From: Planctomycetaceae bacterium | GTDB lineage: Bacteria > Planctomycetota > Planctomycetia > Pirellulales > Pirellulaceae | Direction of reading: 5' to 3' | Assembly (NCBI GenBank): GCA_002726245.1 | Contig: PBSM01000024.1 | Coordinates: 1 to 64,000 of the forward strand | Length of the DNA stretch: 64,000 bases | Shown here: positions 21,322-27,987 of the stretch, in pieces | Layout: each line of letters starts with the position of its first letter | Position numbering within the stretch: position 1 is the first letter of the stretch | Made by a program: the position numbers and the translations under genes | Notes under the pieces: model-generated | What the model saw: only the letters and a program-made list of their open reading frames with translations | Told to the model about the DNA's origin: nothing | The model's database searches: none

Positions 21322-22491
21322 ATGGCAGCCGCAATCATCAATGTTCGGACAGCGGACGATCCGCGCGACGCTATCCATCGCGCCGTGCAAGCGTTGGCCG
21401 AGGGTAAGCTGGTCGCGGTACCGACTGAAACCGTGTATGGAGTTGCCGCAAGTGCTTTGAACGAAGAGGCTGTCGCGAGACTATCCCGTTTGAAACAACG
21501 AGCAGCGGACCAGCCGTTCACATTGGCGATCAAGAGTGCTGACGATGCCCGAGACTACGTTCCGTGTATCCCAGCAATCGGCGAGCGCCTTGCCAGGCGA
21601 TGTTGGCCGGGGCCGGTAACGCTAGTCGTCGACAGCGATCACCCCGACAGTTTGCTGAAGCAGTTGCCGGATTCGGTCCAACAGGCGGTCTGTCCGCAAG
21701 GAACGCTCGGCTTGCGAGTTCCCGCGCACGAAGTCGTTCTGGCCGTAGCTCGATTGACCGCTGGTCCGTTGGTGTTGACAAGTGCGAATCGACGCGGCAG
21801 GCCGGAAGCCAACAGTTCCGAGGAGGTGGCCGCCGCCTTGGGAGACGAGATCGATCTGATCTTGGACGACGGGCCGAGCAAGTTCGGACAGCCCTCGTCG
21901 GTCGTCCGCGCTGGCAGCGACGGCCTGAAGTTGCTCCGCTCCGGTGTCATTAACGAGCAGGCTCTGAGCCGCTTAGCCGGCTACATCTTAGTATTCGTCT
22001 GTACCGGCAACACCTGTCGTAGCCCCATGGCAGAGGCGTTGATGCGTCGCCGCGTGGCCGAGCACTTGAAGTGTTCGATCGCCGATTTGGAAGAACAAGG
22101 CGTAATGATCGTATCAGCAGGCATTGCCGCCCACGCGGGCGACCGGGCGAGCCTGGAATCGGCTCAGGTGGTCAAAGAACGAGGTTTGGACCTGTCCAGT
22201 CACGAAAGCCAGCCTCTCGGCGAACGCTTGGTTCGTTTCGCGGATCTCGTTCTCACGCTGACTCGGGGCCACCGCGAAGCCATCGTGGGACAGTGGCCTG
22301 ATGCCGCCGAGAGGGTTAAACTATTGTGTGGTGACGGTTCAAACGTCGCTGATCCCATCGGCGGCCCGATTGAACTCTATCGCCGTTGTGCCGATCAGAT
22401 TGATGCGAACTTAGGGGCATGGTTGGACGAGATCGACTTCTCCTCGCTTCCGCCCGGAAATCCGACCGACAGCGAGGGATCAGGAGCCTGA
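21322..22491 (+). CDS. TsaC/Sua5 threonylcarbamoyl-AMP synthase fused to a low-MW phosphatase (YwlE-like)
   Basis: 389 residues. Residues 1-205 are the YrdC/TsaC fold that makes threonylcarbamoyl-AMP for t6A37 of ANN-decoding tRNAs: V-A-V-P-T-E-T-V-Y-G-V-A, S-R-L-K-Q-R, L-A-R-R-C-W-P-G-P-V-T-L-V and P-L-V-L-T-S-A-N. Residues 222-370 are a low-molecular-weight protein phosphatase with catalytic loop C-T-G-N-T-C-R-S-P-M-A-E and the acid Asp in V-A-D-P-I-G-G. In tyrosine phosphatases the loop usually reads C-x-G-N-I-C-R-S; the Thr seen here is the residue that selects phosphoarginine in YwlE of Bacillus. rpiB follows after 4 bp, copying the neighbours ywlC, ywlE and ywlF of Bacillus. No Shine-Dalgarno is obvious. 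Confidence 0.9.
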   Translation: MAAAIINVRTADDPRDAIHRAVQALAEGKLVAVPTETVYGVAASALNEEAVARLSRLKQRAADQPFTLAIKSADDARDYVPCIPAIGERLARRCWPGPVTLVVDSDHPDSLLKQLPDSVQQAVCPQGTLGLRVPAHEVVLAVARLTAGPLVLTSANRRGRPEANSSEEVAAALGDEIDLILDDGPSKFGQPSSVVRAGSDGLKLLRSGVINEQALSRLAGYILVFVCTGNTCRSPMAEALMRRRVAEHLKCSIADLEEQGVMIVSAGIAAHAGDRASLESAQVVKERGLDLSSHESQPLGERLVRFADLVLTLTRGHREAIVGQWPDAAERVKLLCGDGSNVADPIGGPIELYRRCADQIDANLGAWLDEIDFSSLPPGNPTDSEGSGA

Positions 22492-22495
22492 TACG

Positions 22496-22942
22496 ATGCA
22501 AATCGCCATTGGTAGCGACCACCGCGGATACAACATGAAAGTCAAGCTCGCGGAACTACTTGGCGAGTTCGGACATTCGGTAACCGACGAGGGCACCGAC
22601 AGCGTCGAAAGCTGCGACTATCCTGACGTGGCGGCTGCCGTCGCGCGGAAAGTCGCTTCGGGCGAATCGGATCGCGGCATCTTGATTTGCGGTACAGGCA
22701 TCGGCATGGCGATGACGGCGAACAAATTCCCTGGTGCGAGAGCGGCAACTTGCCACGACGAAGTGACTGCCGAGATCTGCCGGCGGCATAACAACGTCAA
22801 TGTGCTCTGCCTGTCTGGTGATCTGCTGGGCGAAAGCCGACTCGACAACTTGGTGAAGATCTGGTTGGAGACGGAGTTCGAAGGCGGACGCCACGCTCGC
22901 CGTCTCGACAAGATCGCCGAGATCGAACGCCAGCACTGCTAG
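22496..22942 (+). CDS. rpiB: Ribose-5-phosphate isomerase B
   Basis: 148 residues, the normal RpiB length; ATG at 22496 with AGGAG upstream inside the end of the previous gene. Interconverts ribose 5-phosphate and ribulose 5-phosphate in the pentose phosphate pathway. Visible motifs: I-A-I-G-S-D-H-R-G-Y, G-I-L-I-C-G-T-G-I-G-M-A-M-T-A-N-K (anion-binding loop with the catalytic Cys), R-H-N-N-V-N-V-L-C-L-S-G-D. A related allose-6-phosphate activity cannot be excluded. Translationally close to the TsaC-phosphatase fusion, so likely one operon. Confidence 0.93.
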   Translation: MQIAIGSDHRGYNMKVKLAELLGEFGHSVTDEGTDSVESCDYPDVAAAVARKVASGESDRGILICGTGIGMAMTANKFPGARAATCHDEVTAEICRRHNNVNVLCLSGDLLGESRLDNLVKIWLETEFEGGRHARRLDKIAEIERQHC

Positions 22943-23455: not shown

Positions 23456-23572
23456 GCGCCGGGCCAGTGCTTGCATCTCGAAGCGATCGCGCCCTGAACT
23501 TGCCTTCGACGGCGTAGCGGCCGATAATCGAACCGTGTTCGGACGTTGATCGCGTTTCTGAGAATTAAAGCT

Positions 23573-24514
23573 ATGCGTAAAAGCAGCCTTTGCATCGCGT
23601 GCCTCTCGGTCGTGTCTCTCGCCCTGGTCGTTCATGCGCAGAATCGCAAGGCGGCGAAACGGGCAAAGTTGCCGACGTTTCAGGCGAATCAGACGAGTCG
23701 CTTCTTCTTCGATGATGTGCTCGCACAGCTACAAGGTGAGCGACCGGCGAGTCCGAACGCGTCGGTCGCAACTGTCGAAACTCCTGGAGCGCCAGATGCA
23801 GCAACTGTCGGCGAGTCCTACGCTTGGTCCAAGATCATCTCACCTTCGACGGTGGAAGATGAAGTCAAGAAGCTCAAGAACGCGATAAACACAAGCATCA
23901 CGACGCCCACGGAATTCGCCGGCAAGGGATACAAGGAGATTCGGCGCGACTTTTCAATCCTCGCGATGGTCTTTGCCATCATCAACGAATACGACGCCGA
24001 TGTCCGCTGGAAAAAGGATGCCGCCGCGGCCCGCGATATCTTCGCGCGAACAGCGGCGAATGCCAAGGCGGGCGGCAACATCAACGTCTATAAAGAATCC
24101 AAGAGACGTAACGACGAACTCACGGATCTGATGGGCGGCTCGTCGCTCGGAAACCAACCCGAAGAGCAGGCCAATAACTGGGAACAAATCGCCGATCGCA
24201 ACCCACTCATGCAACGCCTAGTCACCGGCGCCGAGGAGAATCTCTCCAAGTGGACTTCCAACGAAGATGAGTTCTCGAACAACATCGAGGAGGTACTGCA
24301 CGAAGCTGAGATCGTCGCCGCGATCGGTGAAGTGTTAATACGTGAGGGCATGGAAGATGGCGACGATGAGGAATATGCGGCGTTCGCGAAGCTAATGGAG
24401 ACCAGCGCGCTTGACATCGTGGCAGCCGTGAAGCTGAATGACGCCGATCAGGCTCGAAAGGCCAACGGCGAAATCGCCAAGGCCTGCTCGAACTGTCACG
24501 ACAATTACCGCTAG
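23573..24514 (+). CDS. Exported c-type cytochrome with C-terminal heme site
   Basis: 313 residues from the ATG at 23573. Signal peptide over the first 21 residues or so (L-C-I-A-C-L-S-V-V-S-L-A-L-V-V-H-A, cut after H-A). The body is helical and the only heme motif, C-S-N-C-H, comes six residues before the end (C-S-N-C-H-D-N-Y-R). This is the layout of class II (cytochrome c') proteins, where the heme motif closes a four-helix bundle. The N-terminal half (to about residue 90) is low complexity and does not belong to that fold. Periplasmic. The partner and ligand are unknown. Confidence 0.75.
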   Translation: MRKSSLCIACLSVVSLALVVHAQNRKAAKRAKLPTFQANQTSRFFFDDVLAQLQGERPASPNASVATVETPGAPDAATVGESYAWSKIISPSTVEDEVKKLKNAINTSITTPTEFAGKGYKEIRRDFSILAMVFAIINEYDADVRWKKDAAAARDIFARTAANAKAGGNINVYKESKRRNDELTDLMGGSSLGNQPEEQANNWEQIADRNPLMQRLVTGAEENLSKWTSNEDEFSNNIEEVLHEAEIVAAIGEVLIREGMEDGDDEEYAAFAKLMETSALDIVAAVKLNDADQARKANGEIAKACSNCHDNYR

Positions 24515-26067: not shown

Positions 26068-27987
26068 ATGCTGACAGACCTAATTCTTGGAACTGCCGGG
26101 CACATCGATCACGGCAAAACTTCGCTCATTCGCGCGCTGACCGGTACCGATACAGATCGGCTTCCTGAAGAGAAACGCCGCGGCATTACGATCGAGCTTG
26201 GGTTCGCCGAACTCGAACTCGGCGAATATCGACTCGGAATTGTCGATGTTCCGGGGCACGAGCGGTTCGTCCGGACGATGCTTGCCGGTGCGACCGGGAT
26301 GGATGTCGCATTGCTGGTCGTGGCCGCCGACGACTCGGTCAAGCAACAAACTCGCGAGCATCTGGAGATTCTGAGACTGCTTGATCTCGAATGCGGTGTG
26401 ATCGCCTTGACGAAGTGCGATCTCGTCGATGAAGACTGGCTGTCGCTGGTTGAAGAAGAGATCCGCGAGTTGGTTGCCGATTCATTCCTGGCCGAAGCGC
26501 CGATCGTGCGAACAAGCGCCACTTCGGGTGTCGGGCTCGACGAGCTTCGCGAGAAGCTAACTCAAGCCGCCGAGAGGGCCGCTGACGACAAGCGTGCTCA
26601 GTTGATCCAAGCTCCCTTCCGGATGGCGATTGATCGCACCTTCACGATTGCCGGCCATGGGACAGTCGTCACGGGTAGTATCAGCAGTGGGACGGGCAAC
26701 GTCGGCGACGAACTGTTGATCGAGCCAGGGAACGTCCGCGTGCGTGTCCGTGGCCTACAGAATCATGACCGCTCAGCCGATTCCGTCCACCGCGGTCAGC
26801 GCGCTGCGATCAACCTCGCGGGTGTGCATCACGACGAAACGCAGCGTGGACAGGAACTCTGTTCGCCGGGGCATCTTGTTCCGAGTCGCTTGCTAACCGT
26901 GGAGCTATCATTGCTCGCCTCGGCACCGCGTCCGGTCAAGGATCGCACTCGAGTTCGCATCCATGTCGGAACGGCTGAGCTCCTGGCGTCGATTCGGTTG
27001 CTTGATTGCGACCTCTTGGAGCCTGGAGCCAGTTGCCACGCACAACTCTTCCTGAGCGGGCCGGCAGTCACTGTCTGGGGACAGCCGTTCGTAGTACGTA
27101 GCGAATCGCCGGTGTCCACGATCGGTGGTGGGCGTGTGGTCGATCCGAACGCGGAAAGGAACCGTCGCGCGGACGACGAGACCCTGCGAATGGTGCGTTC
27201 CTTGGCGTCGCGAGATGCAACCGCACGTGCCTCGGCCGCCTTGTATTTCGCAGGCCTGCGAGACTGGCATCCCAATGATCTGCCTCGCACGGCCGGCATC
27301 GAAGACATCGACACGGCTTGCGAATCGTTGCGAGGTAGCGGCGACTTGTTGGAGATCGATGTTTCGCCAACACGCGCGATCCGGCTTCATCGTCTCGTGC
27401 TCGCCCGGCTGTGCAACCGTGTTGAGGGCGTCTTGGAGAACCTACATCAGCGGTATCCTCTGCGGACGGCGATCGAGCGAAACGAAATTGCCAACATGTT
27501 TCGTTATCTGAGCGATGAAGCTCTGTTGACGAGCGCCCTGAAGCAGATGCAGGCCGATGGTCGCTTGAAGTTTGGTGCCAAGGGAGTCGCATTGGTCGGC
27601 CATGGGCCCAAACTGTCACAGAACGAACAGAAGCTATTGGGCAAGCTGATCGAAACGATGCAAGAGGCTGGGCTGCAACCTCCGTCGGTTGCCGAGTGCC
27701 GCAAGATGGCTACGAAGAATCAGGACTCCGTCGCACAATTGCTATCCCTGGCGGTAGCAAATGGTGAGCTTGTCGAGCTCTCTTCCGACTTCTACCTGCA
27801 CGCTGATGTTGATCGGCAGGCGCAAGAACGGTTGCGGAGGGAACTCGATAACGGTGGCTTAACCATGAGCCAGATCCGAGAAATCCTGGAGACAACTCGC
27901 AAGTACTCCGTTCCCTACTGCGAGTACTTAGACCGCATCGGTTTCACGCGTCGCGATGGCGATGTGCGCGTGCTGGCGGACTCGTAG
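26068..27987 (+). CDS. selB: Selenocysteine-specific elongation factor SelB
   Basis: 639 residues, normal SelB length. GTPase motifs: [10 protein letters not shown] (P-loop), [23 protein letters not shown] and S-A-T-S-G-V-G. Two EF-Tu-like beta barrels follow (G-H-G-T-V-V-T-G-S), and the C-terminal 250 residues hold winged-helix repeats that bind the SECIS hairpin. SelB delivers Sec-tRNA to UGA codons. The extra C-terminal winged helices and the I-T-I-E-L pattern separate it from EF-Tu. No selA, selD or tRNA-Sec is visible in the window. Convergent with the ATP-grasp gene; a palindromic repeat fills the space. Confidence 0.93.

Follow-up and report, generated by a model that had tools for sequence, protein, structure and literature searches.

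Nearly all descriptions of protein arginine phosphorylation come from Gram-positive bacteria; Chlamydia, too, has kept McsA and McsB (PMC11708050). In Bacillus subtilis, the TsaD protein is a target of this modification: McsB phosphorylates it on the arginine R282, YwlE protects it, and ClpCP degrades it (PMC7546277). The glutamates with which ClpC binds phosphoarginine (pArg) are E32 and E106 (PMC12583610). In YwlE and in Staphylococcus aureus PtpB, Thr at position 5 of the P-loop selects phosphoarginine and Ile phosphotyrosine, and a Thr-to-Ile exchange shifts the activity (PMC8001253). This bears out a first reading of the present locus (the sequence-only reading), which had held that Thr selects phosphoarginine in YwlE and that tyrosine phosphatases usually have Ile. 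For the family of threonylcarbamoyl-AMP (TC-AMP) synthases, the named architectures are TsaC, Sua5, HypF and TobZ, and both family papers are silent on planctomycetes and on any fusion to a phosphatase (PMC10321239, PMC9654439).

The planctomycete protein described here resembles YwlE and PtpB in its CTGNTCRS loop, DP general acid, fold and best sequence matches, in the presence of McsB and ClpC, and in having tsaC and rpiB as neighbours, but it is fused behind TsaC, reads DPIGG rather than DPFGG, has a planctomycete host and is known here from its sequence. With the TsaC/YwlC/Sua5 synthases it shares the fold, the KxR...SxN catalytic tetrad and the status of sole copy found in its genome; its C-terminal partner, however, is a phosphatase instead of a SUA5 domain. 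Known domains and a known arginine system thus occur in an architecture and a phylum for which we found no description: our search for literature on arginine phosphorylation in Planctomycetota or on an LMWPc and Sua5 fusion returned none, subscription journals lying mostly outside its reach. We propose that the protein is probably a bifunctional TC-AMP synthase and YwlE-type phosphoarginine phosphatase that erases McsA/McsB marks.

A TsaC-YwlE fusion in one reading frame

In a 64,000-nucleotide stretch of DNA (the window, to which all positions refer), a TsaC half and a YwlE-type half are encoded in a single open frame without internal stop (Table 1). The sequence-only reading had claimed exactly this arrangement, with the loop CTGNTCRS, and had placed rpiB 4 bp downstream; both stand. 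Pfam matches the protein with Sua5_yciO_yrdC at residues 24-208 (E 1.4e-46) and LMWPc at residues 224-368 (E 2.2e-25), and TIGR00057 (L-threonylcarbamoyladenylate synthase) exceeds its cut-off. On rpiB, TIGR01120 reaches 170.2 bits against a cut-off of 138.65. The AlphaFold2 model of the fusion was built from an alignment of 22 relatives; its halves led Foldseek to Sua5 and YwlE, with YwlE top-ranked among the phosphatases.

Table 1. Features of the fusion locus, with positions in the window
Feature	Position	Strand	Basis
TsaC-YwlE fusion gene, 389 aa	21322..22491	+	ORF; Pfam/NCBIfam domains; AlphaFold2 mean pLDDT 94.6; Foldseek, domains similar to Sua5 and YwlE
TsaC (Sua5/YrdC) domain, sole PF01300 match in the 89%-complete assembly	21391..21945	+	profile search
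KxR half of TsaC catalytic tetrad, K58-Q-R60	21493..21501	+	sequence; motif named in PMC10321239, PMC9654439
SxN half of TsaC catalytic tetrad, S154-A-N156	21781..21789	+	sequence
LMW phosphatase domain, YwlE type	21991..22425	+	closest solved structure: arginine phosphatase YwlE, 4pic (E 3.8e-25)
Phosphatase P-loop CTGNTCRS, C227-S234	22000..22023	+	sequence; specificity Thr231 = 22012-22014
General acid D344-P345 (DPIGG)	22351..22356	+	sequence
rpiB, ribose-5-phosphate isomerase B, 148 aa	22496..22942	+	ORF, Pfam/NCBIfam; starts 4 bp past fusion stop

The fusion is widespread across Planctomycetota. We fetched 130 regions, the window's own included, from genomes drawn across the phylum and selected for their resemblance to the full-length fusion protein, and the two halves share one frame in every one of them, which rules out a chance frameshift or an assembly or annotation accident as the cause of the fusion. 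In a scan of a larger collection, the named relatives among the matches listed belong to Planctomycetota, the nearest being titled Planctomycetota, Pirellulales and Planctomycetaceae; no other named phylum appears among the matches listed, and a protein of Monoglobus (Clostridia) is the one case that we found outside. One contig (L112) is titled Candidatus Kuenenia stuttgartiensis; its fusion is 45% identical to the window's and ranks among the Pirellulales matches, and the contig is probably mislabelled.

Gene order around the fusion

Of the 120 loci with enough downstream sequence, 78 have rpiB after the fusion in the same orientation. Related arrangements occur in Firmicutes. Acetoanaerobium (Clostridia) has the order prmC-prfA-tsaC-ywlE-rpiB-upp (names by sequence), with the CTGNTCRS loop and with McsB on the same record, and in Listeria tsaC and ywlE are adjacent and unfused, with a 4-bp overlap. 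For B. subtilis, the sequence-only reading had described ywlC, ywlE and ywlF as close neighbours; ywlC and ywlE are indeed near each other but not adjacent, ywlD being directly upstream of ywlE (PMC10448178).

The Monoglobus pectinilyticus protein (508 aa, CTGNTCRS, encoded upstream of rimI and tsaD) likewise has a TsaC-type domain joined to an LMW phosphatase of the Thr type, but it carries a full SUA5 domain (PF03481) between the halves and is therefore probably a separate fusion event. The LMW-PTP of T. tengcongensis (4egs) is also of the Thr type and is the second-best PDB sequence match to our phosphatase half; its deposited molecule name, RpiB, suggests a fusion to the other neighbour instead. 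Taken together, the gene orders of Planctomycetota and Firmicutes, the clostridial fusion and the name of 4egs indicate a cluster that is common to two phyla and prone to fusion. The ancient link that the sequence-only reading had suggested thus finds support in the shared gene order and the second fusion, and for t6A and arginine phosphorylation in the B. subtilis TsaD case; its pentose-phosphate part consists in the adjacency of rpiB only.

Other genes of the window include selB, the selenocysteine-specific elongation factor, near the fusion (26068-27987, + strand; TIGR00475 over cut-off), and a 322-aa protein (23546-24514, + strand) with a C-terminal match of the cytochrome c' type (PF01322) that ends in the haem motif CSNCHDNYR. 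ARAGORN found no tRNA genes in the window.

Loss of the TsaC active site beside a separate Sua5

The window protein has all four residues of the tetrad (K58, R60, S154 and N156), as do 91 of the 130 fusions in full. We were not able to find a second TsaC or Sua5 in the window's genome, where a single PF01300 match was obtained from an assembly that is 89% complete and could thus be missing another. The fusion with intact tetrad is likewise the only TsaC found in 19 sister genomes. Among sister genomes with an intact tetrad, further PF01300 matches are HypF-sized or HypF-like, except in one genome (G324).

Other lineages show a different picture. In all 16 sampled genomes of family f3 the fused tetrad is lost, and each of them also has a stand-alone Sua5-type protein whose tetrad is intact; the same combination is found in L092 (the window's nearest named relative among the matches listed), in Rhodopirellula and in Neorhodopirellula. 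Across the genomes tested, those with a lost tetrad had a separate Sua5 in 32 cases and lacked it in 2, as compared with 1 and 20 for those with an intact tetrad (Fisher p 9e-12, kinship ignored). This count omits genomes with a single substitution, and the conclusion is the same whichever way these are counted. The new observation is therefore that, where a separate full-length Sua5 is present, the active site of the fused TsaC is usually lost while the phosphatase half is conserved. Since the lost tetrad tracks the separate Sua5, the TsaC half presumably becomes dispensable once such a protein is present, although the order of events is inferred.

The two halves of the protein differ accordingly in their conservation: among f3 fusions, sequence identity is 32% in the TsaC half and 59% in the phosphatase half, as compared with 40% and 38% among fusions with intact tetrad. 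The Cys, Thr, Arg and Asp of the phosphatase are retained in 16 of 16 f3 proteins. One of the most decayed TsaC forms (G024) is still predicted to fold, with a pLDDT of 92.0, and matches Sua5 structures. The phosphatase half thus appears to stay under selection while joined to a dead TsaC domain that is predicted to be folded. Such repeated decay of TsaC with the phosphatase kept implies that t6A synthesis on the same chain is not required for the role of the phosphatase, and the lineages with dead TsaC provide a natural separation of both functions.

Two genomes have lost the fused tetrad (G274, loci L188 and L111, assembly 99% complete; and G314, locus L419), and a search of both assemblies for a separate TsaC or Sua5 found none. 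In several further loci (L202, L215, L220, L228 and others) the sole fused TsaC reads KxS...SxN, with Ser for the Arg of KxR, a form of the tetrad that may still work.

Why the two halves are joined

The fusion may have arisen as a neutral by-product of operon order, in which a lost stop codon joined tsaC to its neighbour ywlE and the halves remained uncoupled; we consider the chances of this evenly balanced. The unfused tsaC and ywlE neighbours of Firmicutes, overlapping by 4 bp in Listeria, are what such a merger would start from, the TsaC half decays beside a separate Sua5 while the phosphatase is kept, and the name of 4egs hints that the other boundary of the cluster can fuse too. A merger without consequence fits less well with the persistence of the fusion throughout a phylum, with the retention of a dead TsaC domain that is predicted to fold (though under much reduced sequence constraint), and with the fact that loss of the TsaC domain is never seen, among loci picked by similarity to the whole fusion. 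The clostridial Sua5-YwlE fusion, which has a SUA5 domain in addition, and the standing of TsaD as a McsB/YwlE target in B. subtilis (PMC7546277) also argue against it. Neutral operon fusion is a strong answer to the question why the halves are fused, and it is compatible with, and no competitor to, the function assigned to each of them.

Alternatively, the TsaC half, live or dead, may serve the phosphatase as a module for regulation or targeting, which docks it to the t6A machinery or stabilises it and was kept after Sua5 took over catalysis. Retention of the decayed domain in 16 of 16 sampled f3 genomes, in Rhodopirellula and in Neorhodopirellula favours this, as does the Sua5 fold modelled for the most decayed form; the conservation of the TsaC half is low, however (32% against 59%), and the decayed forms, having lost catalytic-site residues, are unlikely to sense anything through that site. 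Overall we regard such a module as rather doubtful. The more specific version, in which t6A synthesis and arginine phosphorylation are physically coupled in Planctomycetota, the TsaC half placing the phosphatase at the t6A machinery with TsaD as a target, as in B. subtilis, and dead TsaC serving for docking or regulation after the Sua5 takeover, is somewhat more doubtful still. Speculatively, the coupling could consist in the removal of phosphate from TsaD. The TsaD motif GGVAANxxLR has its Arg in 15 of 15 aligned proteins; B. subtilis lies outside this alignment, and the motif Arg is not equated with R282.

An arginine-phosphorylation gene set in the genome and the phylum

The sequence-only reading had proposed searching the genome for a McsB-type kinase and ClpC, and we were able to find both. 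McsB matches solved McsB with an E-value of about 1e-86 and scores over the NF002194 cut-off. Directly upstream of it lies a McsA-like protein (NF053706, E 5e-35, under the Bacillus-tuned cut-off of that model). ClpC (860 aa) has two Clp_N repeats and a UVR motif, and it keeps both pArg-site glutamates, E32 and, by alignment, E108, in GTEH motifs. In the B. subtilis control, PF00217 and PF02861 gave no match though the species has McsB and ClpC, so the control is uninformative for both families.

An absence of arginine kinase from every genome with the fusion, which had been named as speaking against the proposal, is not what we observe: of the 130 fusion genomes, 124 have McsB, and the other six are drafts with a completeness of 73-93%. 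McsB is nearly universal in the phylum, with or without the fusion (280 of 294 Planctomycetota genomes). Given this equal background rate, co-occurrence speaks for an arginine-phosphorylation system being present but says little on what the phosphatase prefers, and we dropped it as proof of phosphoarginine specificity. Together with McsA, McsB and ClpC, the fusion points to a candidate arginine-phosphorylation system outside Gram-positive bacteria, in which Planctomycetota show writer, activator, reader and candidate eraser.

Some planctomycete genomes encode the kinase but no recognised eraser. In two McsB genomes of family f44 (G088 and G275, 99-100% complete) no LMW-PTP domain was found, which further weakens the co-occurrence of kinase and phosphatase as evidence; the genomes G138 and G032 likewise have McsB, and a search of them for an LMW-PTP domain found none.

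The phosphatase half as a candidate arginine phosphatase

The phosphatase half has the LMW-PTP fold, the C(X)4CR(S/T) P-loop and the DP general acid. Among solved structures its best relatives by sequence include YwlE (4pic, 3.8e-25; 1zgg, 3.5e-21), as compared with 9.1e-13 for the best tyrosine-type structure, 2cwd. The signature of tyrosine phosphatases, Ile at P-loop position 5 together with DPYY, is absent; the window protein has Thr and DPIGG instead, with Ile at residue 346 where the YwlE equivalent is Phe. Of the 130 fusions, 106 have Thr at position 5, 14 have Ser and 10 have Leu, Ile or Met; the P-loop Cys is kept in all and the general acid in 129. A count of Thr over the 80 named loci of the collection scan was discarded as circular, the search pattern having been NTCRSPMA.

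Non-fused members of the LMW-PTP family in sister genomes are of the tyrosine type (Ile, DPYYGG) or of arsenate-reductase types. Four genomes (G220, G274, G095 and G002) allow a direct comparison: their non-fused LMW-PTPs read C[ML]GNICRS with DPYYGG, and the fused domain of each reads CTGNTCRS. In the window's genome, the sole other family member found is arsenate-reductase-like (CTGNSCRS).

On this evidence the fused phosphatase half is very probably an eraser of protein arginine phosphorylation. That it is instead an ordinary tyrosine (or broad) phosphatase, in which an inherited Thr means nothing for specificity, is quite improbable: ten fusions do tolerate Leu, Ile or Met in an otherwise intact protein, and the Pfam family is named after phosphotyrosine, but Thr or Ser occupies the position in 120 of 130 fusions and Thr in all 16 f3 fusions with a dead TsaC half, the non-fused tyrosine-type enzymes of sister genomes keep Ile and DPYY, the Thr-to-Ile exchange shifts the activity of YwlE and PtpB (PMC8001253), and the genome holds the McsA/McsB/ClpC set.

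For the bifunctional enzyme that we propose, the N-terminal half would convert threonine, bicarbonate and ATP into TC-AMP for t6A37 of tRNA, which we infer from the intact tetrad and from its being the only TsaC found. In the Cys-based C-terminal half, C227 would attack the phosphorus and D344 would protonate the leaving group, and Thr231, judging from YwlE and PtpB, would favour phosphoarginine over phosphotyrosine. This half may erase the marks of the McsA/McsB kinase encoded elsewhere in the genome, and their removal would spare proteins from ClpC, whose N-domain has both pArg-site glutamates. The fusion would thus be a concrete link between protein arginine phosphorylation and core tRNA modification.

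The arginine phosphorylation suggested by the sequence-only reading agrees with the McsA/McsB/ClpC set and the YwlE-like sequence, and less well with the ten fusions in which Leu, Ile or Met takes the place of the specificity Thr despite McsB in their genomes. We could not find a Thr-type LMW-PTP elsewhere in the genomes of these ten. They comprise five loci of family f16 (L236, L243, L274, L289 and L290) and those of G001, G008, G031, G093 and G169, and they represent a possible natural switch of specificity.
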